From: Halichondria panicea
Taxonomy: Eukaryota > Porifera > Demospongiae > Suberitida > Halichondriidae
Direction: 5' to 3'
Assembly: GCF_963675165.1 (NCBI RefSeq)
Contig: NC_087385.1
Coordinates: 3,782,501-3,846,500, forward strand
DNA length: 64,000 nt
Shown here: positions 877 to 29,800 of the stretch, piece by piece
Position numbering within the stretch: the first letter of the stretch is position 1
How the letters are laid out: every line of letters starts with the position of its first letter
Notes under the pieces: model-generated
The model's input: the letters and a program-made list of their open reading frames with translations, nothing else
Databases searched by the model: none
What the model was told of the DNA's origin: nothing
Program-made: the position numbers and the translations under genes

Positions 877-3800
877 ATGTGGGCTGGACGAGCTAGCATC
901 ACAAGCAGCCTGTTTGCTGTGCTTCTGGGCGCTCAGCTGGTGTGTGTGACCCTAGGCCAAGTGGAGTCAACTATGAGATGGGTGAAAGCTGCAGATAACA
1001 CTGCTTTGTGCAATGACCGAACTAGAGCTGGCTTTTTCATCAGTAGGAACAGAAACAATACTGACCCACGTTCTGGAAAGTGGGTAATTTTCCTGGAGAG
1101 TGGAAGCCTGTGTTACTCTAATGATACCTGCAACAGGCGCTTCTTCAACAGTAAGGTAAATCTATTGAACGAAACATCCAGTCTATACATATAAAAGTGT
1201 TTTCTGTATTGATCAATCGCTACAGTTTGATCAGTAGCACATCAAGGTGTAGAAGGTCTAACTATGCATGTATGGGTAGCTGTATCTAAGTGGTAATAGA
1301 CCAACAATATTAACTGCATGCATGAGGTTAGTGATTTAAACGCTGCAAAGTGATGTGCATGCACTAAGATAACTACCGGCTTTTAGGCAGTATATTGATT
1401 ATATTGACACTGTATGCTTCTGGTTTTAATTAGTCTCATCCTAGCCACATGCACTTGAATTGGAATTTTGTATGAATTGACCATGGTGGCATGATTGTTG
1501 ATTCACTTATGCATTCACTCAGTGCACTGTGCACATAAGTGATAACATTGTGTATACATGGTAGCACTGCAGTATATTATTTTGAGCTAATTTTGTCGTT
1601 TCTACTGGTCGAATGACATAATTGTTATAAAAAGGTGACAGAATATTCACGTGCTGATTGACTCTTTATTTGCACATAGCTGGGTTCTAGTAGCTAGCTG
1701 ATTTCAAGGGTGCTATTGAGAAGCCACCGCACAACACTGTGTCGTCATTCCCTTTCAGATAATAACTATATCACTTTTAATTAAATGTTTTGTGTTGGTA
1801 CATAATTATAACATAGTCTAGCACTGTGCATAACATATAACCCCCCCCCCCCCACACACACACACACACACAGACACGTCGGACGTATGATGCCAGGACT
1901 CCATCAGATGCACCGAGATTTCCTCCTTTCGGTCGGTTCGACCCACAGCTGGCATGGGACAACACTGTCAACAATATCGACAGCCCAGAGGACCCGGAAA
2001 CAGTTATTAACCCCCTGATGAGCTCCATGAAATGCTTCAATACAAGCAGCCAATTTCCTGATGGCTTTGAGGTACGTCTTATGGCTTAAAAACGAGGCAG
2101 ATAATTAATTGGCACATTAATTTTAATAATTATGTGTGGTTAATGCTGAAGGCTTTTTCTAACAATTTGCCAATTCTATGTTCTCCATGCAACTTACAGT
2201 GTACATCGCAATGAATGTACATGTAGGCCTAGCAGTGTATTTACTGTACACAGTCGTGCTAACAGTTGTTGCTCATAAAAGTACTTGCGTATAACAGGTT
2301 TTCACTGCTCAACCCACACACAGATTAACGGCACTGACTTCTTTGATCGTAATGACCAATACAACAAGCTATTCCCTGCACACAACCACGTCATCATTCC
2401 CTACTGCTCCTCCGATCTGTGGCTGGGAGATGAGCAAGAAGGAACAGAATGCGACTGTTTCAATTTCACTTGCTTCGACTTTAATCCTTCTTCTGCAGGC
2501 CTTCAATTTACGTTCCGAGGGAAGAAAATATTTCAGTCGATTATCAATCAATTGGTGAATGGTCATGGTATGGGAATGGCCACAGAAATAGTGCTGTCCG
2601 GTTCGAGTGCTGGTGGTGTGGGTGTGGTCAACCACGCCCAGTGGTTGCAAAGACAGCTGCAACCAAACGCGGAACTGTTTGTCATTTTTGATTCTGCATG
2701 GTTTATCAACTTTCAAGGTAAGGTATTGTATTGTATTGAGTATTAAGTATGCAACATCTCAAGAGAGTATCCAACGTAGCATAGCCTTGCATCATACAGT
2801 AATGTGTTGATTCTGGCCTGAAATGCATGATCAATTAATGCTGTAAAGTTATTGCTGCCTCGAGGCAAGTAGCGGCTCTGGGCACTCCGATTGGTCAGTT
2901 ACCAAGCAAGAAGTCCGGTCATTTTCGATTACATCTGATGCAAGGCTATGCTACGCTCGATACTCTCTCTTTTTTGTCATGGACCTTGATAATATTGATG
3001 GTCTTCAACTCAAGCATGTGTATGGTCTATAAAGAATGTGCTTATTTTGTGGTCATTAGAAATTTGCAATGTGAGCTAGAGCACATTGTATACGCACTCT
3101 AAAGATTGTAGGATTACTGGGGCATACCTGTAGAATTGTGCAAATTACTTCCCAGCAAAGTTGTCTATAAGTAGTATGTGATGTGCTAATCAAATAAATA
3201 AACCTCCTCCAGCTATAGTTGCTTTGAAGTTGTATAATGATATTGCACACCAGGTAATCAATATTCTAGGAACTCATCATGCAAATGCTCATACGTACTC
3301 TCAGTGTGAGCTACATAGACAATCTACACAGTGTGAGCTACATAGACAATCTATACAGTGTGTGCACATCCAGTGTTCCCATATATTCACACACCACCAT
3401 TCCACACCTGCACATGCACTCTTAGACTCCATCTATCGGATATTCGATGGAACTGCCAGTCGGACAGAGTCTCGAGAGCAGAGGGAGAACAACCGTCGAC
3501 TACTCGGCATACTCAAGTCCAACGAGGCATGTAATGACACCTCTCTCGGGTTCCCCTGCTGTATCTCCGCCCACTGCATGTTCACCACGGTAAGACTCTG
3601 TGAGGTGTGTGTGGGGGGGGGGGGTTGGAGGTTAAGCATGTACGTATAGTGTTGTTCTTTAATGACCTTCCCATCATGAGACATGGTGTTTTATGCAACT
3701 GGTTACATGTTGGCTTCTCCTAAGCACGTCTGCATACCTTTGATTTGTAACTGTAGGTGCTCTGTTTGCGTATTCCTCAATCAAATTGTGAGTTATTACT

Positions 3801-6800
3801 CCCATTCAGCCTGTTAATTAGCTTCTCTGACTCCATTAGTGATGCAATCAATGCAGCCAGTAGAGGAGTTGAGCGCATGTCACTTTGTGTTCATGCAATC
3901 TGGAATCTGAGGATCCATGGAACTTTATATATACTGAGAGTTAGTTTAGCATTCCAAGCCCAATAGTTAGACACATTTTTCACAGAGCTCATCTACATGT
4001 ACATGTACATGTACATGTACATTGTACGGCTCATTAATGAGCAGATCAGGTGTTGCAAGGAAAGCTGAATATAATACCTGACTATGCCTTACTTGCTGAT
4101 ACACATACGTGTCTGCGTACAGTAGCAAAAGATGAATAGCTGAAGAACACTACATACAGTTGTTGTAGTAGTTATAGCTGGCTGTTGTGTAATTTGTGCA
4201 ATTTTGCAACACCTGTGTGGATATGTATTTAGGTGATGTATTTGACCGCACTACAAAGTAGTATCTAACCTGTTCCCTTTGCCCCAGGTGAACACCACCG
4301 GGTCCCTGCGTTACTTTCCCGAGGATGTTAGAGTGTTTGCTATCTCCAGCATCTACGACGTGTTCCTCCTCGTGCCAGCTGCTCAACAGGCGAGTGAAGA
4401 CTTGCATGTGTACTGCACTTGTGTTGAGTGCATGCGTTGCCATGGCTGCGACCAAGCTTGGATTAAAATGTATTTCTTTAAGCTGTAATACAATCAGAAA
4501 ACACTCAGGAACGGCCATATTTAACGTGTATTCCTGTGTGTATACATATACATGTAGTTTTAAGGAAATCAGATAATTCATCCAGTGTGTATTGTTTATG
4601 CGTGCAGTACTCTAACTGATTGATTATAACACTTTCACAGGTGTTCGATGAGAGCAATGAGTTGCGTCGAAACGCTTCTACTCAAAGTCTGGGCACCACA
4701 GCAGCTGACGTGGATGAAGAAGGAGTGAGTGCAGACTTTATCATCAACTTCCTGCGATTGCTCGGAGAATACGGGGGAGCCATGAACACCACCATCATCG
4801 ACTCTCTCAACCAGGTAATGGAATAACAGTAACAGTACAGCCAGCTGTATACAGCACCTTTGCAACACACACACACAAATGGGTAAACCACAATGTAAAC
4901 CCACAATGTAAACATGGACTACATGCAGGCTAGCCTTGAGTGGTTTCTTACCAAATAAAAATTGGCCAGTGTACTAACACAACGACTATAGATCTAGCTA
5001 TACAGGGTTGCAGTAATAAGGCCTACTCCACAGATGTGATATGGAGAATGATGTTATTCATGACTTGTATAGAGTAAAATCAAAATTATTGACAGCAGTG
5101 ACAGCAGTGGCGTAGAGAGCATGGAAAAAATTTAGAAGGGGAGCTGATACGCATGTGCACACATATTAAAGTGCCTGCAAGGGGGTCTTAGGGTAGTCCC
5201 CTAAAAAAATTGCATGCTCTGGTATTGATTGGTGTATTTGGTACAATTAAAAGCTTGATCTTTGATTCAATTGAGCTTGGGTAAAAAGCAAGCATGCAGT
5301 GTTAGGGGCCTGATTCCTACTTTTAGTACACCACTGGACTGGACAGTACTGCAGATGGTCTCCCATTTGAGTAACCACAATTTACTACAATAGTACATTG
5401 TGGTTTTATGCTTGCGTTCATGTGTTGCAAAGGTGCTTAAAACTGCTGTACAACTATTCTCTGAATGAATGTCGAGTGACCACCTCATTATATCAGGGTT
5501 TCAGGGAGGTAGTACATCACAACTTTTTGTGGTTTAGGTTTAGACCGCGTACGATTGTCTTTCTGCTGCTTCCTTCTTATTTACGTACGTGTGTAAAACC
5601 TTAAAGCCTGGCTAGTGCCTCGGTAACTGTATAATTATGCGTGCTATTGCAGAGCTAGCCCTTGTTGAATATTCCGTACCATGTCCGTAGTTCATTGTTA
5701 TGGCTTTAGATAGTAAGTGGTTAATCGACCATTCATACCATATACGTATCCTTGTTGCTTAGATACATGCATGTATGTCATATTGGACTCAAACTTTCGT
5801 GCAACACTTGACAATTTTGTTTACAGTGACGTGTTAGTATATGGATACGCATCGTCGATCACTCATACCCACCCTCTCTTCACAGTTTGACAATCTTGCG
5901 GTGTACCTGCCTCAGTGTATGCAGCACGTCTACCTGGCCACCTCCACTCTCAGAGGAGAACCAAATAGTGTCCTTGGCAACGATGGAATCAACATTGACC
6001 GAGATGTTCTTCAATTTCGGTAGGTGGCTGTGTTTGTTTTGGGGCATGTGATTACAGTATTAAGTTTCATGTGTACTATATAGTAGCTATAGAGCTGTAT
6101 GCTCAATCAAAACAAATAATTGTCTTTTCCCAAATTGTATGTTTTGTGAGTGTATACTCACTAGACGCCTGCTGTTACTGTTATCGATACTGCAACACTG
6201 TTTGTTTTTACTAATATTCATAGCCCTTGTGTGGCATTGTCACATGTGGGGGTGCTAGTTAACTGGCGTCTCTTAATAACATCACAAGGTGTAATGCGTA
6301 CAACGAGTCATGAATTTGTAATACGATACCCAGGCATAAAATTGGACAGCATGGAGGCTTATTTGTACACATAGTGGTCAATATAATTAGCTTGTACATG
6401 CATGTACTTTGTGCAAGGGTAATTGTTGCAGTTAATTGTTCTCAAACCTATAGTGTAAATTGTGCCACACTGCTCCACTTGTGTACACGTACATGTACAG
6501 CTCTGTTAAAACTGTATGTACCTAATGACTGTCGTCCTCACATGCAGGCACACCATTGAGCAAGGTCGCTGGAACTCATCTAACCTTGCAAACACTCCTA
6601 CTGAACGAAATCGTACCATCACCATCCAGGTCTGTGGTTTCATGACTTGTATTCATGTACACCCTATCTATTTGAACACTTGCCCTTGATCAACTTTCAC
6701 CCTGGCTAAGCGTATGAACCTGTAGTGGATATTGTACAAGTCAGTGTCTACATATGTGTGTATAATTTGCAGGCTGTTGTAGGATAATCGATATCATGTG

Positions 6801-9800
6801 TTCCCCAATTACATGCATGTACGTGTGTATACTCATGCAGGGTGCGCTGTTGGACTGGTACATGCGCATTGACAACAGCAACATCAATTCGTATCAGTAC
6901 CGTGCCACCTGTCAGGGCCCCTACTGCCACCCTGGTGTATGCCCCGATAGGCTCACCCTACTCAATGCTGGTCAAAATAACTGGCCACCTTGGTCCAAGG
7001 TCCTCATTGCCTGTCTCATTATGGGCCTCTCTGTCATCAGTCTGTTCATGAAGGTACAATACGACACTGCTTAGAGTCGGACAAACAGTAGACAAACAAA
7101 GTATAATTATGTTGCTAGCACTATTACAAATGTAATCGACATTCCTACATGATGTTGTTGCCACTGCAGATGTTGTTTGTGGTGTGGCTCTACCGTCTCG
7201 AGAGAAAGCAGGATGCATACTTGGATATTTTGGACCAGCGCCGCGGTGAGGCGGAAGAGGACGTCCTAGGAGTGAGTGGGAGGAGGCTGTTCAATATGTG
7301 TGCTGTGTACATTATGTACATACGTGTTGTTTCTAAAAGTTGTTTTATGCTGTAAGCCGATATGAGAGTTTACACTGTACAATCATAGTTAATGGTTGCA
7401 ATATCATTGCAAAATGTACAATTTTAATGCATTTTCATACACATATCCAACCCCCCTCCTACACACTCGCAGTTTCCTAGATGTGAAGAAGAAGACGCCA
7501 TCGCAGTATCCTGTCTGGACATTCACTACTCCGTGTCATTCCGAGCAAAAAAGGCAGTAAAAGACGAAAAAAAAGACCAGACAGCTCCAATTGTGCTCAA
7601 CAACATTGCCAATACATCCAGTGACTCGGATAGTGAGCCAGAAGGTACACAAAGTGGTTACATGTCATACAGTCAACACACAATACAGCGTAATAATGCA
7701 TGTATACAGTCGATTATTTGAACCCCGATCATCCGAATTCTCGGTTATCTGATGAAAGATTCGGCCAAAATTCATAGCAAACACCTACTCACACATGTAT
7801 GCGCATAAGTGTCCACGTGGTTAAAAGCTTTTTGCGTTGCTGATTAGCAGAAGCAGACTAACACTTCAGATTATCCTAACAGTATAGCTTGCTACCTTGT
7901 TCTGTCCACTGATGCATGTCCAAGACTAGTAAATTTGTAAAAGCTCTGGACATCGTCTGCTGATTTTACATGCAGAGGCTACTTGAATTATCGATGGGCG
8001 TGGCTCATTTAGAGTCATTCTGGTATCTAAATATTTTGGATGAGGTGGGGACACCAGGTGTTTGGATAATCAAGGCTCAACTGTAGTGACTATCCTAAAT
8101 CGGAATGACTGTTATTTTGTGTTAATTAATTTACTCTCTTAGTCTCTCTAGCCGGCTATAGTGCATACTAGCTATAGTCTTACAATTGCTGAAAACTCTT
8201 CCTGCATGACTTGTTCTTGTATTACGACATATTACCATGGTTACTTCCTCCCCACAGAGTCAAGTCGCTCATCACGCTTGTTTAGCCTCTCAGGGGCCAG
8301 CATCAGACGCAGTGGGCGTCATAAGACCACACGAAACCGTGCCTCTGCTCTGCTTCGACGCACATCTCACTTTGTGCTCCCTGAAACTTCTCGGAGGAAA
8401 AGATCCAATGCTGTGAGTACTGAACTATCACAGTAACACTATAGATCTTGGTGTTTGTGTATTGTTTTTGACCCTTGTCGTAGCAAACAGTGCATAAGCA
8501 CCGTCAGTCATGACTGCTCTTTTCTTTTAAAATTCTCCAGCTGCTTATTCTCCTCACGTTAATGTTTTGCTATACGTAAGAAATGTGTTTTAATGTGTCG
8601 TTCGTCTCCACTGCATGCACAGGACCTGAAGAGACATAAGTTCTCCAAGAAAGGATCAGTGCCTCCTCACCTTGCCGGGAAGAGTATCCCTCCAGTGTGC
8701 TCAGACTCTCAGGTAACTTAAGTGTGGCTGTACTGTAAGCATGCATACAATAAGCAGCTAGGCTCAGCACAGACTCTCAGGTAACCAAGTGTGGCTGTAC
8801 TGTAAGCATGCATACAATGCGCAGCTAGCTAGGCTCAGCACAGACTCTCAGGTAACTTAAGTGTGGCTGTACTGTAAGCATGCATACAATAAGCAGCTAG
8901 CTAGGCTCAGCACAGACTCTCAGGTAACCAACGTGTGGCTGTACTGTAAGCATGCATACAATAAGCAGCTAGGCTCAAAGGTTGAGCACAGACTCTCAGG
9001 TAACCAACGTGTGGCTGTACTGTAAGCTGCTAGTGTGCTCTAAGGTTGACGTTGTACACGTAAATGGCCACGTTTGGCCCCACCCATAAACAGCATTCAT
9101 AGTTTTTAAATTCCACTATGTGATGAATGTAACTGATACATGACACGTACGGTTAGGCTCAAAAGCGATTGAGTAAACCCAGTAAAGCCTCGATTTCTCC
9201 CCACCCAGACGCCTGAGGCTGCATGCATGCATGAGGTTGAGGTAGAGAAGGAAGTGTTCGGCTATCGAAAGAAGAAAATTTTGAAAGCCGTCTCAGTCTA
9301 TTTCAACCCCGGGGAAATGATTGGTGTGATGGGTCCTTCTGGATGTGGCAAGACCACTTTCCTCGACCTCATGACTGGCCGAAGGAAGACAGGAACTTTT
9401 CAGGTGTTGTACAAGTGTGATAGTAAAGGTTGATACGTACAATCAGGTGTACGTATTAAGTGTATTCATGCATGTATGTACAGATACATGTACGTGTATA
9501 CATGCATGTAGTACAGATACATTGTACGTGTATCAGCCATGTATCTGTAATCTATCTTCATTTGTGTCACGTACTGTCCAATGCACTACAAAGCACTGTA
9601 CGACACAATTAACCCACCCTCAGGGGGAGATCTACGTGAACGGCATTCCAATGGATGAGATTCGTGACTGGTATGTGGCTAATACTGGGTACGTCCTCCA
9701 GTTGGCCACACCTTATTACGAAGAGCTCACTGTGAGAGAAAACTTGACACTGGCCGCTCAGATGAAGCTACCCAAGACGTTCACACTCAAAGAGAAGTTT

Positions 9801-12800
9801 GAGAGGATAGAACAAGTAGTGGAAGTGGTGAGTGACATTCAGTTGTTACACGGAAAGTAGTAGCAAATTAATGTACGTACGTACATACGTACAGTGTTGA
9901 AAACCTATAAGTGTAGAACCTTCTGTTTGTATGTATATGTATATTGTAGTCGTGGCAATACTAATACTGTGCAACTACGAAGTTGCATACATTTTTACAT
10001 ACATGTACAATAAAGGTTACCATGTGTGTATGCTTGAGCACTAGTGACTTTTGTTTGTCGTTACTTCAGACTGGACTAACCAAGCTAGCTGAAACAGTGG
10101 TGGGTGGAGCTACCGGTCCCGGTCTCAGTGGTGGCCAGAAAAGACGACTTGCTGTTGCCCTACAGCTGTTGAAAATGCCCAGTATTATCTTTTTGGATGA
10201 ACCAACATCGGGTTAGTCCAGTATTTTTGACAGTACGATATCTAGATGTATAGCTTTGTACTGATGGCGTGATATAATATTGTTTGTGTTCCGACACAGG
10301 TCTCGATGCCACCGGTTCATTTGAACTCCTCTCTCACCTGAACAAGCTGGCTGACTCCAACCGCACAGTGGTCCTCACTATCCATCAGCCACGACTCGAG
10401 ATATTCCACATGTTCGACAGACTAGTACTGCTCTCAGACGGAAAGGTGAGTGTGCACAGCAGCTAGTATGGACAGTCAAAATAAGTTTCAAGCAAACGTT
10501 TGGTAAAGATCATTAATGTAATTATGCCTCGGTGCGCATGCGCAAGCGAGGTATACGGTAGTGTGTTTGTGTGTCTGTGTGTCTGTGTGTGTAGACTGCT
10601 ACAGCTGCTCAAGGATGAATCAAGTGCAAGTAAGAGTTTCTATAGGCTTCTAGTCATGTTTACTTGAATTTTAATTCGTGGATTTGCAAAATAATGCTTC
10701 GTTCTCGAGTTATGCCTAGTTTTGCTTACTTGGAATGCCATTGCAGCCTTTTCAGAAGAGCACGTAGCCAAACTTGTTTACCGAGTGTTGCTACTCTACT
10801 TAGTAGTTAGCTCTGCACTAGAACGCTAGCTATTGGTAGCTGCAAGAGTGAGAAGAGAGCTGCAAGGCTCTGCTATTATGCAGCCATTAATTTTAGACTT
10901 GAATTTTTGGCATCGATCATTTTTAACAACAATCATGGTCGATCATTACCCACTCTCAGAGTTTTTGCATGCAGCAAAATTAATTGTGTATAAAAGCTAT
11001 TAGTAGCTTTATGTTATGTAGCTTTGGCATCTCCACCGAGGCATCAGCACCTTTGGTGCTTTCATTCATTATAGATAGTTGATATGTCAGATTAGATCCT
11101 TGTGCTTCAGTTACTGAACTCGTGTGTGTTTAATGACTCACTAAGATTTGTGTGTGTGACAGAGTCACATGATAGTTCCCCTCCCCCCAGGTTGCCTACC
11201 ACGGAGCCCCTGAGAAGGCCTACGAAGTGTTCGTCAATGCCTTGACTGCACGCTACCTGGAACAAGGTCTGGTCATCCCTGAGCTGGAGGACCACAATCC
11301 TGCAGGTTAGCGACATGCAGCATAATATATGTAGTCTAACTTCTTCCTCGTTTTCATCTGTGTGTGTGTACTACTGTTCCAACTCAAATAATCAGGATAT
11401 TATAGTTGATACTTAGCGTAATTAGTTATAGTTAATGCTCTACTGTTTCTTTAATTTGCTGTTTATCCTTGCATGCACTATATACGTACGTACACCAGAT
11501 AAACATGTTTATAACCCTCAGCGCTGCTTATAGGATATCGATACTAGCTACACTTAATACAATACAGTGTGTGTGCTACACGGTACAGTTTCTAACTCTA
11601 ATCCGCCTCTTTTTTGGTACGATATCTAGATGTTATCATGGACATGTTGGGAAACCAGAAGATGAGACAGATAATCACCGATCACTACCAAATGTCAGAT
11701 GAGCCACGGCTTGTGAAGAGGGCTATCACTGCAGCAAGGTACACATGTAATTCAGAATCTTGCTTTGACATGTACATGTACATCAAAATTAATGAGTGCA
11801 TTTTCTACGCTTTATTCAAAATGTGTACAGTCTACAAAATGCTTTAGACATTGCTCCTTCTTCACATGCAGATGGAAGGAGTACAGCACTTCAATAAACT
11901 CTCTAGACACTATCTCGAATACTTTCTCCTACGCTCTGTTTGGTTCTAAGAAGGTTGCCAGGAGGCAGGCAGACCTGTTCACACGAATGGCCACTCTTGA
12001 GGCTCGAGGATCCAAGAGAGGCTTTGTTTTCTTCCTACCTTTTATGTTCTTTGCTTTTGGATTTGTACTCGGTGAGTTGCACCTTATATTGTTCTAACGT
12101 GCCTGGAATTCAATAAAACCATTGCTGAATGTATGAAAGTATTTAGTGAATCTTGACTATGGCTAGAGCTATAGTACAATGTATCGCAGCTGAGTCGATC
12201 ACTACAAGTATACAGTAGACAGTCTTTCATAATATAACACACAATGGGATTTTTATGACCTGGATTACTCTCTCTTAGGAACTGTATACCTTCAACAGTT
12301 GGAACCTCTGTATATCATCTCTGGAGTGTGTGTGTTCTCTGTGGCCAGTGGACTGTTCATGTTCCCAGCTATGTACCCCTATTACCAGAGAGCACTTCAG
12401 GTATGTGTTGTGTGTGCAGTGATGGGGTGGTATGTGTGTGTGTGCGCTGATGAGGTGGTGTGTGTGCGGTGATGGGGTGGTGTGTGTGTGCGGTGATGGG
12501 GTGGTGTGTGTGCGGTGATGAGGTGGTGTGTGTGTGTGGTGATGAGGTGGTGTGTGTGCGGTGATGGGGTGGTATGTGTGTGTGTGCGGTGATGAGGTGG
12601 TGTGTGTGCGGTGATGGGGTGGTGTGTGTGTGCGGTGATGAGGTGGTGTGTGTGCGGTGATGAGGTGGTGTGTGTGTGATGATGAGGTGATGTGTGTGTG
12701 CGGTGATGGGGTGGTGTGTGTGCGGTGATGAGGTGGTGTGTGTGCGGTGATGAGGTGGTGTGTGTGCGGTGATGAGGTGGTGTGTGTGCGGTGATGGGGT

Positions 12801-15800
12801 GGTATGTGTGTGTGTGCGGTGATGAGGTGGTGTGTGTGTGTGGTGATGGGGTGGTGTGTGTGCGGGGTGGTGTGTGTGTGCGATGATGAGGTGGTGTGTG
12901 TGTGGTGATGGGTGGTGTGTGTGCGGTGATGGGGTGGTGTGTGTGCGGTGGTGGTGTGTGTGTGCGGTGATGGGGTGGTGTGTGTGTGTGCGGTGATGGG
13001 GTGGTGTGTGTGTGGTGATGGGGTGGTGTGTGTGTGTGTGCGGTGATAGGGTGGTGTGTGCAGATGGTGTGGTGGTGTGTGAGCATGTCCTGGTTATATA
13101 CATTGGATGTGATAACCTAATAGTATGCATAGTACAGTACTGTCTCGATTAAGACACTCTTCATATCACTTTTCACGGTACCACGTCTCCTCTAGCCTCT
13201 ATATGGAAGTAACTGGTTCAAATACTCAGATGTTACACTCGTGAGCAGTTAAAAACCGTTTCCATTCTGCAGGTGTATTCGTATGAGAAAGCTGATGGCG
13301 TGGGTCGGTCTGTTGACCTGGTGCTGCAAGGGTTCATCCGGTTCTCCGCTCTTTCAGTGCTACCAGCCATTATCTCAGCGTCTATTCTCTACCTCATGGT
13401 CAGCACTTTATGATTGCGGCTAGCAGTAGCACTGCTGTCAAGTGTATATGCCTGTACTTACTTATACTTTGTCCCAGGTTATGTATGCAATTATGTACAT
13501 TGTCCCATTGCTAAAGCTGTCGAGAGATCAAACCATTGCTTAGGGAAAATGTGTGCACATGCCAGTATTTAGGTATAATTATGTAAGAAGGCATAGTAGC
13601 TTGATTGTGTATGATCGTATACAGTACTCAGTAGCAACACGGTGATACATACATTGTATACACACGCATCCACCTGTCAATACACAAACACACAGTTGAT
13701 CAATGCCCAAGCATACAACGCGCTGGCCTTCCTGCAAGTGGTCCTAGTGAACGTTGCCCTGAGCCAGTGTTGGATCTCCCTCCTCATTGCCCTCATCTGT
13801 GCCATCCCCAACACCGCCTTCAGAGTGTCCTCTGGCATCTCAGCAGTAGCAGGGTTCACCAGTGGCTTCTTCATACCAGTGGAGCAACTGGGCTGGTGGT
13901 AAGTTCAAAGGCCGTTTAGGGTATTCTGTATGTGGAGGTGCATGTGCGCTTACGTTACACTATTGGTTGCCCCCCCCCCTAGTATTCCTAACTTTGGATT
14001 CATGGCCTAAATGTTTTATGTAACTTTGTTGTGGTTGCATGCTTCTGTAGCACTCAATGACCTAGTGTGTGCCTCATGTTTACACTTCCCCCTCCTTAGG
14101 TGGCGATGGCTAGTGTACATCAACCCCAACTATTACGCTGTGTCCTCTGTAGCCGTGTTCGTGCTATCCGACTTTCAAGCCCCCTGTCCTGGTTCAGAGT
14201 TCGATTGCTTTTTACAATCAGGTACCCAGATCCTACAACAGTTCAACTTTGACCAAGTCAACCCCTACATTCATCTCACGGTCAGTTACACTTGCTTTGT
14301 ATAACTGTGTATTAGACTTGCAGTCGGCTAAAGCCAAACCCTGTCCCTAACGAGTCAGTGGGTGTGCTACTTCAATAATTGACTGCTTACAACTCACTTG
14401 GGCACCCGTTTATATTGGGCACATATATTTTAGTTCTCATTATGCCTCGAGGCGTAGCCGCACGAGAGATACGGTTAAGCTGACTGTGTGTGTGTCTGTC
14501 TCTGTCTGTGTGTCTATTCCAGCTATAACTGCTCAACGGTTGCAATGCGACGAAAACTAACAGCTTCTATAGGCTTCTAGCCACGTTCTCTTGGATTTTG
14601 ACTTGTAGATTTGCCAACTATAGCTTTGTTCTCGGGTTATGGCTAGTTTTACTTAGAGTGAAGGTTGTTCCATTCTGTTCAGAATATTTCGTTACATTAT
14701 CTGTTCGCACACACTTTCTATTCAACTTATGAGTTAGCCTTGCACTAAAGCGCTATTAGTACAAGAGCCAAAAAAGAAATGCAAAGCTAGCTGTACACTT
14801 GCACTGCCAGAAGCAGCAGCCCTTGTGAACTCTGACCTCTTTGTAAATCCACCCTTTTTTAATTTATTCATTATTGACAGGAAATGCAAAATTAATACTT
14901 GTGTACATGATTGCTGCTGAGAATTCTTGAAAGATCATCATCAAGTCTTTCCATTAATTAAGCTCCTCTTCTATAACACTGTAATTCAATTCGTTCATTG
15001 TCGACTTACAATTGCTAACATAACATGCAAATTACATGTACCTCTTCTATAACACTGTAATACCGTTTGAGCGAAAGCAAAACATGGCGAAAGGCATTAG
15101 CACAGCGCAGCTTGCACCACTTGTTTTATTAGCTGTCACTGCTTAAGTGGCTGTTCCATTCCTCCTCATCCTCAGGTTATTCTGTTTTTCACGATCTTCT
15201 ACCTTTTCCTGGCCATTTTTGCCAACTGGGTTCGCCATACCTCCATCAGCAGCAAACTCAAGAGGTTCAAGGCCATCCTCTTCAGGTACAGCACACTTGT
15301 ATACATGTAGTACTTGTGTACATTGTACATCGCAAGTATTGGGCCTGTAGTACAGCTTGTGTTGTTTTTGAAGGAGAAAGCGTTAGTGGTTGAGCTTGGC
15401 ACTTGTGTCATTCCCGTGTGACTGTAATACTCCCATATGTACAGTAATAGAGCATGTATTTACTACTACTTGCATGTAAATCTGCAATGTATGCACACGT
15501 GTCCTGTCAACTGCATGTGTTAGTCTGTACATGTGTTTATGTAAATATATATTGCAGGAAGTCGAGTGACATGTTATCCAAAGAGTTTGATAAGAACCCT
15601 GACGAGTTTGCCAGGAGCTTCAGTATGGACGTCTCCTTGGATGATCCCTCCCAGGGCCCGGAGAAAGACCCTGCCGTCATGCTGACCTCACCCCTCTCAC
15701 CCATCGGGGAGGCTGATGAAGACGATGCCAGTGAAGCCATGACACCACATACCAAGGTAGTACATTATTGGATGATTATGTGCTGTGACACCAACGCAAT

Positions 15801-17228
15801 AACCACTGATTTCATCTGTATTTTACATGTCACAATTTACATATGATCACAGTCGTATGTGTTTGCAATGTTCACACATCCTACTAACAGGCTGCAATTA
15901 ACTGGAGGTCAATGGCTGACCGAACGCTAACGAGACTCGAGGCGGAAGGTGGACTGCACCCTCAGGAGCACCCAGTGATCGAGGAGCAGGAGAAAGCAAC
16001 TGGCTGGGCCAAAGTGCAGAAGAAAGTACGTATCAATGACGACAGACCACAACGTCCAACAATGATTCCCCTTAAAAGTGAGGACAATGAGAAATCGGCT
16101 TACCTCCGTGAAGGTGACTCACATCGGGTGTGGAGGCCAAAGAAGGCTCCTCAGCTAGCTGATCTTGTGAGTGATTTGCTCAAGAAAGAGAAGACCAAAC
16201 AAAGCAGTGAGCCAAGCGTGTCTGCTACCACACCTGTGGGGCCGAGATTCCTAGCTCTTACTCCCACGGCAGCATCAAGATCTAACTTGAAAGCCAGGCA
16301 AAAAACTGTGTTCAATCGAGTCCTAGCCACGCAAGTGTTGCTTCGTGAAACAACTGATGAACTTTTGAAAGAAGACGAAGATCAACAGCTAAAACCACAC
16401 ATTTCATTACTGGAAGCTTCCAAGAAGATTACGGCCAATATCAAAAAGCAACGCTCGGCTGATGAAGATGCAAGAGGTGATGAATTCTCGTCTGTGGTCA
16501 GAAGTTGTCTTAATAAAATGAGATCGGGTGACGGGTCGATGGATGCGAGTACACCGAACGATAATTTAGGAGCTAAAGGATTTAGTAATGGCGTACGACG
16601 TCGTGGTTCCAAAAAAGGAGCTGTTCCACTGAAGAAATGGAAGCATCTTGCACGTAAAGAAACTCAGGCTCAAATCGGGAAAAACCCTGTGTACGACAGA
16701 ACAATTTCGGAATATCCTCTCAGGGCAATGCCAGAAACTACTGTTACAAGCCACAAAGCCCTAGGAAGAAGTACCTCTGCCGGTACAGTGCCAGCTGATG
16801 AGTCATCATTCGGAATAACACTTGTTGAACCTGGATCTTCATCAGCCCACCCAACAGCAGATTCAACAATAAACATCACTATTACAAATCCAGGTGACAC
16901 CACACCTCCTGCCCACCAGCTTCTAATGAAGAAGGATTCACACGGGGTGATAAAACCGAGTAAGATGGCGCAGTTGAAAGGTGCCGTGGGTCGCAGAGGA
17001 AGTGCTGGTCTCTCTCGGCAGACCCCCATCGATTTAGAAGCTTCTCTGACATCGTCTATCACTCCTCTGATCCAAAACAGAGATTCAGACAGCCCTGAGG
17101 GGGTAGAAATGGGCGTAGCATCTGGAACGGGGAAGAGACTGTTGTTGAATGACCCTCCACAGAAGATACTAGGTCGTAGCCCTTCGCCAGACTCACTGGG
17201 GAAGAATGTCACTAGCACCATGTTGTAA
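877..17228 (+). CDS. NOTUM/pectin-acetylesterase-like hydrolase fused to an ABCG-type half transporter
   Basis: Exons: 877-1155, 1874-2071, 2324-2717, 3426-3589, 4288-4389 (GC donor), 4641-4814, 5886-6019, 6548-6629, 6841-7053, 7170-7271, 7473-7644, 8258-8412, 8623-8712, 9209-9403, 9624-9827, 10070-10211, 10300-10445, 11191-11305, 11630-11738, 11872-12071, 12279-12400, 13273-13398, 13696-13898, 14100-14280, 15176-15285, 15558-15756, 15891-17228. They total 5,649 nt, an open frame of 1,882 residues. Residues 1-27 look like a signal peptide. Residues ~30-545 are NOTUM/PAE-like: YCSSDLW near 186, nucleophile Ser254 in GSSAGG, Asp369 in SSIYD, His451 in CMQH, many Cys and N-glycosylation sequons. 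A hydrophobic span lies at ~562-588. The ABCG half follows: Walker [10 protein letters not shown] (~796), signature LSGGQKRR (~905), Walker B IIFLDEP (~929), switch His962, about six helices (~1055-1370) with the ABCG-like [11 protein letters not shown]. The tail (~1371-1882) is polar and probably disordered. Expected topology: hydrolase outside, ATPase inside. Known family roles: NOTUM removes palmitoleate from Wnt; ABCG proteins move lipids. The coupled function is inferred. Alternative: two adjacent genes, but no stop or new start lies between the halves. Confidence 0.87.
1841..1872. repeat. Poly-C plus (CA)n microsatellite forming an acceptor tract
   Basis: A C-run followed by CA repeats runs directly into the AG acceptor of exon 2 at 1874, so repeat-length change would alter the polypyrimidine tract of this intron. 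Confidence 0.7.
7707..8083. mobile_element. Pogo/Tigger-like TA-flanked miniature element
   Basis: The left end reads CAGTCGATTATTTG and the right end is its imperfect inverse, CAGTTGAGCCTTGATTATCC on the other strand. TA dinucleotides flank both ends. It sits in an intron of the fusion gene and has no coding capacity. The family name rests on terminal sequence only. Confidence 0.55.
8713..9030 (+). repeat. Tandem duplication of a 5' splice-site region in the fusion gene
   Basis: About 70-bp units follow the exon ending at 8712. Each carries the motif gactctcag|gtaac, so potential donors occur at 8713, 8781, 8852, 8924 and 9000. The first is assigned as the real donor because it keeps the reading frame to the next exon at 9209. 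Use of a later donor would read into an in-frame TAA just after 8713. Confidence 0.85.
10523..11045. mobile_element. Miniature element with TGCCTCGGTG/CACCGAGGCA termini, copy 1
   Basis: Intronic insertion of about 520 bp with inverted ends ATGCCTCGGTG and CACCGAGGCAT, an internal GT-rich tract and no open frame. A second copy lies at 51841-52194 and a diverged relative at 14440-14830, with long near-identical internal stretches such as the block around gactgctacagctgctcaag. Confidence 0.7.
12409..13084. repeat. GT-rich minisatellite in a fusion-gene intron
   Basis: About 30 irregular units of the form gtgtgtgtgcggtgatgaggtg fill most of the intron between the exons ending at 12400 and starting at 13273. 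The antisense strand shows long His/Thr/Pro open frames, which come from the low-complexity repeat. Confidence 0.9.
14440..14830. mobile_element. Diverged relative of the TGCCTCGGTG element family
   Basis: The left end reads TATGCCTCGAGGCG, followed by the same GT tract and related internal sequence (cttctataggcttctag). The right end is not clear. It lies in an intron of the fusion gene. Confidence 0.5.
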
Positions 17229-18297: not shown

Positions 18298-20432
18298 TCA
18301 ATTGAAGGTAATCTTGGGGCAGTTATTCTTATAGTTGTCAGCAGTAAGTGTTGCATGCTGCTCTGTAAAATGAATATCAGATGTGGGTGTCTCACATACC
18401 ATACTAGATCTAGACGACTCATATCCTGATGAGTCCGATGATGAAGATGAGGTCTTTTTGAGTGGCAAATGCCCTGGCTTAGATGGAGGTGATAGATATA
18501 CAGTTCTTGATGAATCAATCTTGGGACAGTTATTCTTGTAGTTGTCAGCAGTAAGTGTTGCATGCTGCTCTGGAATTTCAAAATGAATATCAGATGTGGG
18601 TGACTCACATACCATACTAGATCTAGATGACTCATATCCTGATGAGTCCGATGATGAAGATGAGGTCTTTTTGAGTGACAAATGCCCTGGCTTAGATGGA
18701 GGTGATAGATGATGTACAGTTCTTGATGAATCAATTGGTACTGTTACATGGACTTGAGGAATCACAGCACCATAACAGTTAATCTGTGCATGCATGATAA
18801 CAGGGAAATGAACTAGATCTAGATATAGGTTAGGCATTACTGCAAACAACGTTACACCATGCATGCAGCTATGTATAATGAAATTTAGATTTACACATTA
18901 TTTTATTCAGTTTACCATATCCGGTAATTTGGATGCTGCGTTCTGGTTCTGTGTATCTGATGGTGAGTCTCTCTTGAAGGCTTGTTTGAGAGACAGCAGA
19001 TCTAATTGTTTCCTGTTCACAGGAGTCTAAATACAACAATCATTGTTGTTACACACTAGAAAAGTAAACTAACATTTACAATTCAGCTCATATATACATG
19101 CAGGCTTACATTTAATAAATTTTCTTTTTGTCTTATCACTTGGGTGGGTGATTGTGCAGCTTCAGCATTACACCTATGGTTTATATGCATAATTACATTA
19201 TAGTATGACTATCTATGATTAAAGTTTATGTGTGCTATTACTTTGGCCATGGAGTAAACTTACATACTGTGATCTTTCATGATTGTAACATAAATGTTGC
19301 TAAGGGCCCTGATCTGGAATTGAGACAGTGGAAACTTTTTTTCTGCCAGGCGTGCCGACACAAGAAATCTCAAACACACACAGCCTTTTTCAATTGAGGC
19401 TATATGCAAATCCCAGTCATTAACTCCTAGAATTGTAGCTATCTTTTGCTGGGAAGAAACTACATCTTTCAGAGAAGCCTCCCCCTTAGATGCGAGCTTA
19501 ACTGATACAACTCTCGTATTACTAGTGCCACCAAAATGCGGTACAATATTAAGAGGAATCTGGAAAGCACTTCGTTTGCAAAAGTCGATGAAAGCTGTAA
19601 TGTATGTTTGCATATCTTGCTGATTCTCTTCTGAGCCAAAACGATTCACAATTTTTTCAATTATGCGATAGTTTAGAAAGGACTTGAAAGGGCGAAGAGC
19701 AACAAACATTCCAGGAATGGTTTCTGCCTTTTCTAACTTTTCTAGGTGCTCCTCGTGACCAAACGACGAAACAAGATTGAGAACAAAATTTTTGAGGAGA
19801 GTAATGTTGCCTTTAAGATTCTGTGCTATATTCGTGTCAGTTTCAGCGAAAAGAGTTATCATTTTCTCTGTATCTGACTGGAGCCTGGTTTCAAGAATTC
19901 GTCTGTTTTGAACAGAAAGGCTTGGAGTATTAAGATATGGGAATAAAGTTTTTCCGGTAGCCTCAAGACAGCGTCTTCTCGATAGAAACTCTTCGAGTGT
20001 GCATTTTCTACAGTAGGGACACATGAAGGCAGTAGAGTTATGTGTGCTGATTGGCTTTAAGTTTTGCTTTTGCTGAATACAAGCGTCTCCAACTACTTGG
20101 TCATGATAAGTTTTATAGCATTCCTGCAATTTTTTCAGTAAATCGTTAGTAAATGGAGTCTTAAGAATATCCAAAAATCCATGGAAAGTAACAGGATCAT
20201 GTTTTATTCGATCGGATATACTATCGACAAGTCGATGTGCTTTTTGCTTGTCAGTGATTGCATCTACTCTGGCATAGTCTCGAACTTCAGATGATATATA
20301 CGATTTAGCAAACAAAGAATTGCAAAATGTGCCAGGTTCTTGAGTAATAGTGTCAACAAGGCTCTCATAGCAACTCTGGAAAGCTGTATACTCAGGAGTT
20401 CGCATGTTTTGTTCGAAGTCATTAGCTGCCAT
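18298..20432 (-). CDS. CARD-like adaptor protein with duplicated Ser-rich C-terminal repeats
   Basis: Exons (5' to 3'): 20432-19264, 19173-19110, 19026-18916, 18783-18298, totalling 1,830 nt and 609 residues. Residues ~1-110 look like a death-fold/CARD domain: alternating amphipathic helices with the pattern DRIKHDPVTFHGFLDILK near the last helices. A CPYC..C motif lies near 140. Residues ~190-390 form a helical then mixed module that I recall only loosely from invertebrate death-domain proteins and cannot name. Residues 466-537 and 538-606 are two near-identical repeats of 72 and 69 residues, each with SSSSSDSSGYESSRSS, a PPSKPGHL segment and a conserved NYKNNCPKI end. Such acidic/Ser/Tyr patches suggest phosphorylation-dependent binding, which is inference. 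Likely a cytosolic signalling adaptor. The CARD call is by eye and moderately sure; the gene structure is well supported by frame. Confidence 0.75.
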
Positions 20433-20884
20433 ACTTTTCTTTGTATATAATATTTATCACAGCTTCAAGAGATCGAGAATAGGTATCAATCAGAGCTAGC
20501 TCTCTTACCTTATACGCATGCCCATTACTATAGCCTAGACTTCAGCCCCTCAATAGGCCTTTCCCTGCGGCCTGGAATCGAGGCTAGCCCATTACACACA
20601 CTTAGATAGTGGGTGGGGTCATATAATTATACCCACCTACATGTATTGTTAATATAGTCCACCAGGTATTTCCACCCAGAGGAGGTACGACATCCGCATG
20701 TCTTTTAACACACACATTCCGAACTTTGACCTAAGAAATGTGTGTCTAAAACGTTTCCTTTGACACGCGGATATTGTACCTCCTTTGATTTCCACCACAT
20801 CAACATTGCAAACAAACCAACATATATAAAGCATGTCACATAAATCACGGCATTTCACACTCATATAAGACACACAACTATAGG
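20433..20884. other. Spacer between VPS39 3' end and the CARD-like gene start
   Basis: Both genes are on the minus strand, so this holds the VPS39 3' UTR and the CARD-like gene promoter. The only structure seen is an imperfect hairpin at 20681-20783. No gene seen. Confidence 0.5.
20681..20783. repeat. Imperfect ~100-bp foldback
   Basis: GGAGGTACGACATCCGCATG at the left pairs imperfectly with the right arm, which reads GGAGGTACAATATCCGCGTG on the opposite strand. It could be a small miniature element or the fold of a transcribed spacer. No target duplication was recognised. Confidence 0.5.
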
Positions 20885-23800: not shown

Positions 23801-26800
23801 TAACGGCAAAAGGTTCCCTCGGGGATCAAACCCGAGCTTCTGCATGTGAAGCAGACATGATAACCACTACACCAGGGAACCCACATATTTTGTTGGTTAA
23901 TGTAATAGATTGAGGCTTCTAATTTCACAAACATGTCACAAAATAATGATGGTAAAAGGCTCCCTCGGGAATGGACCCGAGATCTTCTGCATGTAAATCA
24001 AATACAACATCACTTCACACAATAATTATGCGAACTACTTGACTACTTACTCTTCAGCCAGTTCTGGTTCCTTGAGTACATGAGCGTAGATGGCCAGTGC
24101 AACCTCGTGCTTCTCTAATCTGGACAGCAGAAGAGCTCGTTCCTCAAACAAGTCTGCATTGGCAAAAAAACAATCCCCATTCATTATCATTATATCTAAA
24201 CAAACTCATTTTCACTATGCAACAGGAATTGGGCAGTATAGATGATTCAAAACAGCAAACACTTAATAATCATGTGCCCGTTAAAGTAATTACACATGCA
24301 TGTGCATGTCTGATCTGATATTCACCGTCTTGTGGGAAAGAGGTGATGTGTTCAGCAGCAACGTAATGTCTGGAGGTTGCTAAGAAACGTAACAGCTTGG
24401 TCCTCAGCACTCCCAAGTCACCAGGCTCCTCCCCCGCCCTCGCTCGAGGCTTGCCTGCAGAGTAGAATAGACGACAAGTGTTTTTAACGCAGATGTATAC
24501 TGTATAGAACCAAATCATACAGTAAAGGATCTTTTGTTTGTTGTTTTCCTGTCGTCTACATTCTAAATTTGTACCCAGGAAATAGAAAACTGATACAGCG
24601 AGCTACACAAATTGAGGCACATTTTGAATTTTGACTTGGTGCTGACTAAATAAGCAGGATGAGCAATTTTATGGCCCATGACCCCACCTTTGATTCTCAT
24701 CTTGTACTCCTCCAGCAGTTTGATGACCCTGGTCTGGTAGAGCTGGATCAGTTTGTTGTGAAACCGCACCGTTGTGTCATCCCACCTGTCGATGATGTGC
24801 TCCTGTGTGTACAGAGCAAAATTAATATTGATTCTCTGCTAAAAAAAGTTCACATTCACAATAAATTCTTCTTGTGAGCACCTTACATAAAATCAAAACA
24901 ATCAAACTAAAGTACTTCCATATGCTCATTGCTCACACACATAAAATAGATACTAACCAGATATGTAATGGTAAGGTCAGGGGCATGTTGCGAGAGGTGG
25001 TCCAGGACATGTTGTCGTGGATATGCCCTCACCTCCTCCACATCATCGGTGAATATCCTGATTGCATCATGCGGTTCATTCTGGGCATAGGGGAGCGAGG
25101 AGTGTGATCACCATGCACAGCCAAGGTTTCACCATAGTTAACAAAAATGATCCAAAGCTTTTCACAAAACATATACTATGCCTGTGCTTCACCTATAGGT
25201 ATAGTGTGGTCCCCTATAAAAAAGGCACTACTGCAGACCACCACATATATACCACCGCAGAGCTACAATTTATATGCACAGTAAAGATGAATGATGACTG
25301 AAGGCTTTATAGTACTTGACTTGCCCACCTTCAAAGGCACGATCGAGTACTCCAACACGAGGTCAAAATATTTGGTGGACAGTCTGTTGAGGTACTCTAT
25401 GGTAGGCCACACACCTGACATCGGACTGTTGGGGCCCTGTGCAAACTTGGAGAGCAGCTGCAGAGCTAAATGGAGAAACACACAGGGAAAATCATATAAA
25501 AGCATTTCACTACATCCATCCACATTCTGCAAGTGGTTTGGTCTTAATTGTGGCTATTAGAAATACAGTAGGAGGGCAATGGCTATTTGGCATTGCAATG
25601 TACACAATTCAGACTAAAATGCTTCATCCCTACCTAGCTGCATAGGCCCGCCCTTAAGACTTATGACTGCACTACAGTCCATAAATACATTCTTGGGGAA
25701 TGTTCATATAGGCACCATGCAGTTAATAGGCGCACCTCTCTTGTGCAGCTTCTTTGAGTTGTAGAGGTCAATAAGCTCCTGAAACTTGTCCTCTGCCTTC
25801 AGCACTCTCTCACACTCGGTTATGTGGAGGTAGTTTTCAGGCAGGCGGACTAGGGATCCAATCAGGGTGTGATTGCCCGTCTGCGGTAGAAACGATAAAT
25901 ACTAAACTTGGTACCTAAAAACCAGCAAAGTAACTTATGGCTAGGAAAAACGAACAGGCATGGCCACATCAAAAGCTAGGGCTCTACCATTAGTGCCAGA
26001 TGTGCTTAATAATTTTCTGTGAAAGCAAATTAAGATGTGCGCATTATGAGAACAATGTATGCAGTATATCCTATACTTCATGCACTCCTGATCCTATACA
26101 TGTATGCTTATAAACTAACCTTTACGTAGCATTTTAGTAGAGTTGTGTCAATAAGCTGCAATCTCTCTGGAAACAAAAACATGTCAATATAACTATGTAC
26201 CTGTACAAGTCAAATGTAACAAAGGGTGCTTGAACTCAAGGGCACATCACTATTTTTGAATAAAAAACATTCCCACTCCGGGAATTGAACCCGGGCCACC
26301 TGGGTGAAAACCAGGAATCCTAACCACTAGACCAAATGGGACAAGCTGAAAGCATGCTTATTGATGTCTGGAAGCATACCTGTGAGCTTTTTGACAGCAT
26401 CATCACTAAGCCTGTTCTCAGCTTTAGTGGCTTCTGTGTCTCGATGCTTCTGTAGCTTTTGCGTCTCTTTGTAACGTGTCTGTGAGCAAAGGGATGAATA
26501 ATATAACAAATAGGAATGCAATAGCCCAGAACAGATGCTTCCAGGGACCAACAATTCTCAAATCACCATGCACCTTTGGTACAAAAATTAACACAATATG
26601 AAATGAGGTTCGCAACAGTAAGGTTCCAAAGAAAGAATCATAAGCCTGATGTACACTGTAATAATGAATATGGTTACAAAAAAGTGGGTGTTCCCATAAC
26701 AAACAAACAAAGACAGAACGGAAGAGCAAAGCATACTTACTAAAACAAACAGAAAATATTAGATCACCTTCCATGGCTACCCAGGAGAACAAAAAAGATT

Positions 26801-29800
26801 ACGATTACTACTACAGATGGACGTACTTAATACCAGTGTCTCTATTGGTGAGCATTGTGGCCTTTGGTCTGATCACTCCTTTCGTGATCTGGCTTAGTAC
26901 CAAGTGTGCTACGAGGTGTTGCCAACATAGGAAAAAGGACTACATTATTGTGTACTACTTAAGAAATGGTATTAGAGATGTTGTTATACGAGCAAATAAG
27001 TACTTTTTGTTGGAGTTTGATTACTCTATCGACTCGATCAAGGAAAATGAACCACACAAGATCAGCTACGCATACACAATGTTTGGAGCAACAGTGAAAT
27101 TCTGTGTTGCAATATTTTTTCATAATTTTTATATCTCTAGTTCTCGTGAGCTTCATTCTCTTTTGGAACACTTTCACCAGTAATGTATTTTTTGGATGCG
27201 ACCCCCACTTCGACTGCTTCCCTCTACACACAAACAACAAGACTCCAATCGACACCACCCCTCTTAAAAACTGCTCGGAATTTGCTGAAAATGAGAATGT
27301 CACAATACTCTGTTTCCAGCTAGTGTACAGATACTCAGAAGGTATAGGAGAAGCTGGTGGGTTCCTGTTCATAATGCAGGTCATAGCAAACTTACTCATC
27401 TATATCACAGTGCGCATTCGAACTACATTCTCGGACATGTACCTACAAACTCGAAAAATGAATCCAAAAAACACCCCGGTATGCAGTGCAAATTTATACG
27501 GGTGTGTACATTGGCCATAACCGTGATAATGATACCAACTTCATACGCACTGATAACAGTTGGAGTACCACTGGGTTTCTACCAAATAAGACCTGAGTTC
27601 TATGCAAGTTTACAAACACCACAGCGATTCTTACAGTTTCTAATCTACATGTTCATCAACTTTGTACTTTTGCTAATACCAATTTTTGTGGCCTTGGGAA
27701 CAGAAGATAATCTCCCTGAGGATAATCAAGTTTTAAATGACACGGAAAAAGTGACAAAACCCGACATGATTACGTAATTTAACTCTGAAAGTCATTCGAA
27801 AGCCTCAGGACATACATGTCAATGTAATAACGAACTTGAAAACTACCCTTATATGTTTGCATGCATGCTATTTTGATGAGTTTATTTATACTCTCTCCGA
27901 CGAGATCGAGCAATGAATTATAGGCAGGCATGCAATTTAGATGAATGCTTGCTAAAACTTAAGCAAACTAGAACCCAGACGTGAACACTCGGCGTGATGG
28001 TGTACAATATTATGGTTCTACAAAAAGTGCCTCGCAACTTCATGGTGGTAGTATAAAGTTAGTGTAGCTACGTTAATGTCTAAGTGACAGTGAGGATTTC
28101 ACCGGCCTACACAGCAAGGAATAACTACATAGTAACCTAGTAACTAGTTAAAATCTCATGACCAGCCACACCTTTCAGGCAAGCGTCAGAGTAGGTCTCT
28201 GGAATGTTGATTGTCTTAACGCGTCAGTGGGAGTGCCATAAACCAGAAGGAAGCAATTTTTGCTTGCTACAAACCAGAAACGTTTGTTGGCTTCGGTAAA
28301 GTAACAATTTTGCCCATACATAATACAAATCACTTTATCTTACTATGAAGCAATACTTACGCTAAGTATAGCTATAGAGATGCATCCCATAAATTTATTA
28401 CGCTTCGTTAATTTCAATCTATAGAGTCAGGATGGAATCCTTAATACTAAAGCTTATGTCAGTTTTGTTATGGCCTGTTACGCAATATTTACACATTAAA
28501 TGGGTGCTTACCCATGCACAAGCACGTAATTACTACACGTTCACGCATAATCATTTGACGTGGGCACAGTTTGGTGAAGCGGCTATACTGCCGTCTGATT
28601 AAAGTCGTCGATATATCTTTCTTATGCATTTACTAATTACATGTACTGACAGATACACTATGTATAAAGAGGTATGGGAATTAGAGGTCACACACACAAT
28701 GAAGTGCAGAGTATAAATTGTACAATGAGAGCTTTGTACACTTTTGACATGAGCCAAATAATGTTAAATTTTGGAGAATTTTATGCACTAGTGCTATGGA
28801 AACCTGTAGTCACAAGACTATGTTGAAAGAATGGGATATACTATATATGCATATGGCAGTACAATCGGTTGTCCTGAATGTTATTCAATTTAGTGTGTTG
28901 TGTACCCAAACTTCTTCACTATCTATGCCCCACATGCTTGCTTTAGCCTTTGAATTCAAGTAAAGCGATAATTGAATATCACCAGTTGGAATGAAGTAAT
29001 AACTTTCATTGCATGCTAAAGAATTACAATGGAGACATTTGGTCTGTGAAAATGATCACTTAAAGCCCCAAACTCAAGGAAACACTTCCTTTCTTGGCAT
29101 ACATGTAGTATAATTGTCTTGAACACAATGTATAATACAAAAATTACCCATGCACAAACTGGCAAATATGAAAGTTAGTTACTGGGTACTCTAGCATGCA
29201 TAGAGAGCCACCACAAACATGAACAGCATGAAGAAAACACGTGTGCATGATAATCTGACAATATAATCCCCTGTGGAAGACAGCACACTATAAAATACAA
29301 CACTTTACCATGCATGCATACAAAAGAGTCAGTTCAAGATGTCAGAAATGAGCATCAACACACACATTTCAAGAGACTATTCCTACTATCACAGATGGAC
29401 ATTTCTCTTCCCACTAGTAACACTTCTGGTAGTCCTCGGTCTTTCAGTGCTTGCAATTGTAATCTCTGCTCTATTCAGGAAAGCTCTCAGTAAATACACT
29501 GAAAAAACTTACGATGAACTACGTCCACAACATATCTGTTTGAAAATTGTTTTCAGTGGACTCCGAGATATGATGCTCCGCACGACAAAGTTCTTACTTT
29601 TTGAATTTGAGTATGAGAAAGTTGAAAAAAACTCTTACAGGAAATCAAAGGAAAAGAAGTTTGAGTACCGACTCTATGGGGTTCCAGTCCACCTGTTTGT
29701 ACTACAGTATCTGTTTATTGTGCTTCTATCGATACTCGCTGTTAGCATATTATCACTCTGGAACATCTTCATAGCTGAGTCTTCTCTGGATGAATGCAGC

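Follow-up and report, generated by a model that had tools for sequence, protein, structure and literature searches.

Can an extracellular esterase of the NOTUM type and an ABCG half transporter be encoded as a single polypeptide? This question is raised by a locus of the demosponge Halichondria panicea that lies within a stretch of 64,000 nucleotides (hereafter the window; NCBI RefSeq assembly GCF_963675165.1, contig NC_087385.1, positions 3,782,501 to 3,846,500 of the forward strand), in which a gene at positions 877-17228, here called W, reads through both parts in one frame. Several lines of evidence, from W itself and from two fusion paralogues outside the window (A and B; C and D denote two plant-type pectin acetylesterase, or PAE, loci of the same genome), indicate that the fusion is a true gene architecture. 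To our knowledge, the pairing of a NOTUM-type enzyme with an ABCG pump is known in no described animal protein.

The preliminary description of the window had claimed one continuous frame of 27 exons and 1,882 codons, and this claim is borne out by a splice-site search, a gene finder and a codon test. A splice-site search constrained to the neighborhood of the earlier boundaries returned one open frame with its start at 877 and its stop at 17226-17228, with splice phases compatible throughout and every intron of the GT-AG type bar one GC donor after position 4389; the search closed exon 11 at 7632, and the boundary at 7644 given earlier, which also has a GT donor, leads to the 1,882 codons. 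A homology-free gene finder, with codon and splice scores trained on W itself, recovered 24 or 25 of the 27 exons with exact boundaries under each of four settings, plus 1-5 extra exons, and its initial settings, which included a homology bonus, over-called with 41 exons on the window. When each exon in turn was left out of the training of a codon test, all 27 were positive in the claimed frame and both other frames scored lower, with a score that comes partly from the absence of stops and an intron model that was not left out. Exons 9-13, at the junction of the two halves, are among those positive, and the sites at 6629|6841, 7053|7170, 7271|7473 and 7644|8258 are GT donors and AG acceptors. 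The smooth joining of the halves across exons 6841-7053, 7170-7271 and 7473-7644 is thus upheld both by splice sites and by coding signal. A long GT-rich minisatellite, noticed by eye (window 12400-13080), takes up a large part of the intron that separates exons 21 and 22.

The domain order that had been described, from signal peptide through NOTUM/PAE-like domain, membrane span and ABC motifs to an ABCG membrane domain, is confirmed by Pfam, hydropathy and translation. From N- to C-terminus, W matches PAE (E 4.4e-29, best stretch residues 159-373), ABC_tran (E 3.8e-26, residues 778-933) and ABC2_membrane (E 1.3e-12, residues 1115-1292), and all features of W given below lie on the plus strand. 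A predicted signal peptide of about residues 1-27 (877-957; hydrophobic span just after the start, cleavage site placed by eye) opens exons 1-9 (877-7053), which encode the extracellular NOTUM/PAE-type carboxylesterase domain (PF03283). The extra membrane span between enzyme and transporter follows at 7012-7184 (coding 7012-7053 and 7170-7184), then a predicted cytosolic linker in exons 10-13 (7185-9208) that is basic (18% K+R) and poorly conserved, with 16% identity to A and 20% to B.

Support for the fusion also comes from outside the window, where A and B show the same order of parts and A has no intron at the junction. A PF03283 profile search of the same 131-Mb genome gave 10 matches among 12 candidates, which fall into five loci, and in three of the five the esterase precedes an ABCG half as it does in W: these are W itself, A at C7:1.588 Mb and B, at C9:3.730 Mb, which starts about 53 kb upstream of W. 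In A, a single stop-free exon of 645 codons (L001:2556-4491), matching PF03283 positions 14-331 and PF00005 positions 1-36, encodes esterase, membrane span, linker and Walker A. Because these parts share one unspliced exon, the fusion junction in A is free of any guess about splicing. In B, a scan of residues 1-1,344 of a preliminary model, which was later refined, detected all three Pfam domains. The final models comprise 1,882 residues in 27 exons for W, 1,596 in 13 for A and 1,910 in 19 for B, the last set partly by hand.

The ectodomains of W, A and B share 36.5-38.6% mutual identity and their nucleotide-binding domains (NBDs) 53-72%; with W as query, no other ABC locus exceeds 51%, and that only over short parts of the NBD. 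Since both halves of the three genes are, within the genome, most similar to one another, a single fusion followed by duplication would be the simplest history. Intron positions are held in common by W and B at eight sites and by W and A at three, all within the ABC half, and the eight shared by W and B imply that the fusion is older than the W/B duplication. The heads are organized differently: that of W (window 877-6629) is cut by eight introns; that of A lies in one exon (L001:2556-4491) except for an uncertain short first exon; and that of B has some 423 residues in one exon (L003:2236-3506), with its C-terminal Cys motif in the following exon. This could reflect intron gain in W, or loss of introns or retrocopying of the head in A and B.

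By every sequence feature tested, the second half is an ABCG half transporter. Exons 14-18 (9209-11305) encode the ABCG NBD (PF00005), with Walker A at 9332-9358, the ABC signature LSGGQ at 10124-10138, Walker B (IIFLDE) at 10184-10201 and the H-loop His (TIHQP) at 10383-10385, all read from the translation. Exons 20-25 (11872-15285) encode the ABC2 membrane domain of ABCG type (PF01061), with its hydrophobic spans and a last extracellular loop with two Cys, and exons 26-27 (15558-17228) a long cytosolic C-tail and the stop. No Pfam match was found in this tail at E up to 0.01. The four ATPase motifs are intact in W and A, and the B model has all four plus an insert in the D-loop. W has one NBD before one transmembrane domain (TMD), an order which, in an excerpt of the survey PMC4649718, is given as found only in ABCG proteins. 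Among the best 60 of 565 PDB matches of the ABC half are Pdr5, ABCG1, ABCG2 and ABCG5/8, and Pdr5 heads the list only through matching of several domains (59.5, 10.4 and 133.5 bits). A full-size ABCG (PDR) protein is ruled out by the single NBD and single TMD of W.

As for the head, all eight PDB sequences matched by the W ectodomain are NOTUM chains (best E 9.8e-15), and a profile built from the three paralogues likewise matches NOTUM chains only, at E 1.7e-29. The fusion heads are 32-39% identical to NOTUM and 23-29% identical to loci C and D. In a tree of seven sequences and 177 columns, which covers few sequences and part of the domain and includes a model of C with an apparent splicing error directly downstream of its GCS motif, the fusions are split from the rest with a support of 90, and with C and D as the assumed root they are sister to NOTUM. 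Motifs and tree distinguish NOTUM-type from plant-type sequences; bit scores against NOTUM, which are 104.6 for A and 101.3 for D, do not suffice by themselves. Excerpts of PMC5465549 list the plant-type PAE (CE13) motifs as GCSxG, NxxxDxxQ (NxayDxxQ) and HCQ, and C and D carry GCS, NSxYDTxQ and HCQ, whereas the fusions have GSSAG, S-x-Y/F-D without Gln, and QHV at the corresponding places. Although plant-type enzymes belong to the same Pfam family and have a C-terminal Cys cluster as the fusions do, plant-type identity for the fusion heads is ruled out by motifs and tree, and no ABC match lies within 17 kb around either C or D. A Foldseek search with a low-confidence model of the head is weakly supportive: of 161 matches with E no higher than 0.001, each of the best 50 is a NOTUM chain, the first with E 8.7e-13, template modeling scores of 0.39/0.53 and a root-mean-square deviation of 9.1 Å. 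The initial description of a NOTUM-like enzyme joined to a complete ABCG half transporter has the support of Pfam, of sequence searches of the PDB and of the small tree. Because a membrane span and ABCG domains follow the enzyme, in place of the secreted stand-alone form of NOTUM, we class the heads on their sequences as NOTUM-type and not as NOTUM orthologues.

W, A and B all retain the putative catalytic residues and a juxtamembrane Cys motif unchanged; of these, only the Ser is placed by strong alignment. The catalytic Ser codon of W (2606-2608) lies in GSSAGG, aligned with the same motif of NOTUM. The predicted Asp (4357-4359, in SIYDVFLL) is assigned by motif and position only, with reference to triad motifs in excerpts of PMC5465549, and the predicted His (5925-5927, in CMQHVYLA) aligns with the C..H of NOTUM only at negative scores (-1.5 and -3.1 bits). 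The juxtamembrane motif C-x-G-P-x-C-(x)-C-P (6910-6945) probably marks the C-terminus of the NOTUM-type domain; its match to the C-terminus of Drosophila NOTUM, 5.2 bits, is weak and not significant alone.

A fragment of human NOTUM searched against the genome led to the same five PAE loci only, best in A (seven of seven candidates matched, E up to 1). Neither this search nor that with PF03283 found a stand-alone NOTUM-type gene, in a genome copy that may have gaps and where one could be missed, so that the NOTUM-type genes found, as judged by their motifs, are the three fusions. In collections of viral contigs and prokaryote genomes, which are uninformative on spread among animals, patterns from the ectodomain gave 45 and 51 matches, respectively, and none was a relative; seven pattern matches to plant-type D in the prokaryote genomes likewise included no relative.

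Hydropathy places a span between the two halves at residues 567-585 of W (peak 2.35) and, in the same place, at residues 432-450 of A (2.65), and a span can be seen by eye in the B model. Sequons amount to 1.5-2.7 per 100 residues in the ectodomains versus 0.4-0.8 in NBD and tail, and Cys to 2.4-3.2 versus 0.2-1.4. On hydropathy and this distribution, and with the linker of A as one reservation, the esterase is predicted to lie outside the cell and the NBD inside.

Parts of this plan are familiar from known systems. The fusions resemble the palmitoleoyl-protein carboxylesterase NOTUM (PDB 4UYU, 4UZK; PF03283; CE13) in sequence family, in the catalytic Ser motif GSSAGG, in PYCSSD-like and DSxWF motifs and, probably but weakly, in the C-terminal cysteine cluster; they differ in that NOTUM is secreted and ends after the enzyme, whereas the fusions continue through a membrane span into an ABCG transporter and have Trp128 of NOTUM replaced. 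With the half transporters ABCG1, ABCG2 and ABCG5/8 they share the NBD before the TMD, the ATPase motifs and the ABC2_membrane domain, but those proteins lack both the extracellular enzyme and the extra N-terminal span, and their PDB chains have 651-715 residues as compared with 1,882 in W. Yeast Adp1 and Arabidopsis ABCG24/28 have a signal peptide, an EGF-like or Cys-rich extracellular domain and one span, followed by NBD and TMD. By domain plan alone, this order of ectodomain, span and ABCG is that of the fusions, although the extracellular part of those proteins is EGF-like or Cys-rich and not an esterase. We know of no precedent for an esterase, let alone one of NOTUM type, ahead of a span and an ABCG transporter. 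Among the matches listed in searches of titles and abstracts of open-licence papers, with preprints and protein databases outside the scope, no NOTUM-ABCG fusion was described, and the most direct query returned none. Other sponges may well encode comparable, uncharacterised fusions.

What might such a protein do? We propose, with about even expectation of being right or wrong, that it is a membrane protein that exports a lipid or other amphipathic ester and cuts an ester on its cargo or on a nearby lipidated protein. In this arrangement, one membrane helix would link an extracellular serine carboxylesterase of NOTUM type to a complete ABCG half transporter whose ATPase and long tail face the cytosol. 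Because ABCG half transporters must pair to work, the product of W would probably be a homodimer with two enzyme heads above one export path. The transporter half would bring a lipid or other amphipathic ester to the outer leaflet or release it from the cell, and the head would cleave an acyl or acetyl ester on this cargo or on an adjacent lipidated protein. Both esterase and transporter would be active, and the predicted topology makes a coupling of export to extracellular deacylation plausible.

Several observations weigh against this proposal or against parts of its basis. The position of NOTUM Trp128 is Ser in W and Gly in both A and B, and Gly also in C and D. As an excerpt of PMC8172013 describes it, Trp128 supplies a backbone amide to the oxyanion hole and contacts ligands in the palmitoleate pocket; since the oxyanion contact is made by the backbone, catalysis in the fusion heads would still be possible. 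Structure prediction gave a mean predicted local distance difference test score (pLDDT) of 34 for the A exon alone and of 48, with a confident core only, from an alignment of eight rows (four of 12 were dropped, three as misaligned and one with its first codon given as Met). The head of B stands equally near to human NOTUM (39.4% identity) and to A (38.9%), which blurs the picture; what groups the heads together is the tree split of support 90 and the common ABC half. With respect to topology, an N-terminal hydrophobic peak exceeds the threshold only in W (residues 8-26) and in neither A nor B, W has an additional peak within its head (residues 359-377), and the linker of A is near the level of the head both for sequons (1.9 per 100 residues) and for Cys (3.8) and fits poorly with a plain cytosolic linker. 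The three linkers have little in common (9-20% identity), and A is modelled with an uncertain first exon. Finally, the B model contains a 10-residue insert between TSG and LDA in the D-loop of the NBD (L003:6243 | 6448) that was kept under every splice choice tried; given this insert, B may be non-functional or mis-modelled, and it could be a pseudogene, an assembly error or an odd variant.

Among the alternatives to coupled export and ester cleavage, two are close rivals. The head could remove the palmitoleate of Wnt as NOTUM does, with the ABCG part serving mainly as a surface anchor that replaces glypican binding. The genome does have Wnt matches (10 of 10 candidates, at exon level) and glypican matches (three of three candidates); the Ser, Asp and His of the NOTUM-type head are conserved; and no stand-alone NOTUM-type locus turned up in the genome searches. 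Against this, the ATPase motifs retained in W and A would be needless for a mere anchor, the glypican loci mean that the usual tether is at hand, and none of the three fusions keeps Trp128 of the pocket, and we consider a tethered Wnt deacylase unlikely. The preliminary suggestion of a part in Wnt lipid handling is thus weakly supported, by the Wnt and glypican loci and the lack of a detected stand-alone gene, and is weakened by the Ser/Gly/Gly at Trp128; because of this replacement, Wnt is a possible but not a favoured substrate. An equally unlikely role, in our estimate, is the processing of other esters, in which the head would act as a deacetylase or deacylase on glycans, sterol esters or defensive metabolites, with the product or its precursor leaving through the ABCG half. 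Export of sterols, lipids and drugs by ABCG proteins is established knowledge, and the diverged heads of the three paralogues may mean several cargos. In excerpts of PMC5465549 the PAE superfamily includes acetylesterases, but the oxyanion region of the fusions differs from that of plant PAE too.

Two further explanations fare worse. The head might no longer be an enzyme and instead act as a lipid-accepting lid on the transporter, as the changes near the active site could indicate (Ser for Gly126 of NOTUM in W and B, besides those at Trp128); retention of Ser, Asp and His in three heads that share less than two-fifths of their residues would be unexpected once catalysis was lost, and we judge a lid to be quite improbable. 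That two neighboring genes have been joined on paper only is scarcely credible: the poorly conserved linker would fit such a case, but phase-compatible exons with coding signal bridge the junction of W, the same order of parts occurs three times in the genome, and A holds both parts in one unspliced open reading frame (ORF). We reject a two-gene artefact because this intron-free ORF of A encodes both parts.

Other features of the window and the genome can be noted in passing. On the plus strand, window 26668-40343 contains at least five ORFs (at 26668, 29294, 34930, 36753 and 39372) that, by eye, seem multi-spanning and related to one another, and the two that were scanned gave no Pfam match. 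On the minus strand, two adjacent ORFs at 18298-20453 have no Pfam match, and in one of them (18298-18897) a unit of roughly 70 residues (SPPSKPGHL...NNCPKI) occurs twice, nearly unchanged. Minisatellite-like arrays on the same strand at 42866-44112 and 33277-34134, CLTSPLLLASLYLYVQCA-like and EPWNHGTM-like and open in one or more frames, are not likely to be genes. Elsewhere in the genome, the ABC loci C16:2327956-2328603 and C16:2340052-2340699, 12 kb apart and with identical scores, possibly represent a very recent duplication. The Wnt and glypican matches, together with a weak Wntless-like match with internal stops (one of five candidates), mark the genome as that of an animal. The active-site motif of silicatein has three pattern matches in the genome, complete at two loci and reading otherwise at one, and none in a reversed control, which suggests a demosponge.

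If pump and enzyme share one cargo, the fusion would be a one-chain unit that both exports and trims a lipid. A broader scenario, which we hold to be doubtful, is that the NOTUM enzyme of this sponge-like lineage occurs solely as the head of an ABCG pump, as in all three NOTUM-type loci found here, with deacylation of surface lipids gated by ATP-driven export; the fusion may then predate secreted NOTUM, which would have split off from it. If the fusions are indeed the only NOTUM-type enzymes of this animal, early control of Wnt lipids may have differed from that by the secreted NOTUM of flies and mammals.

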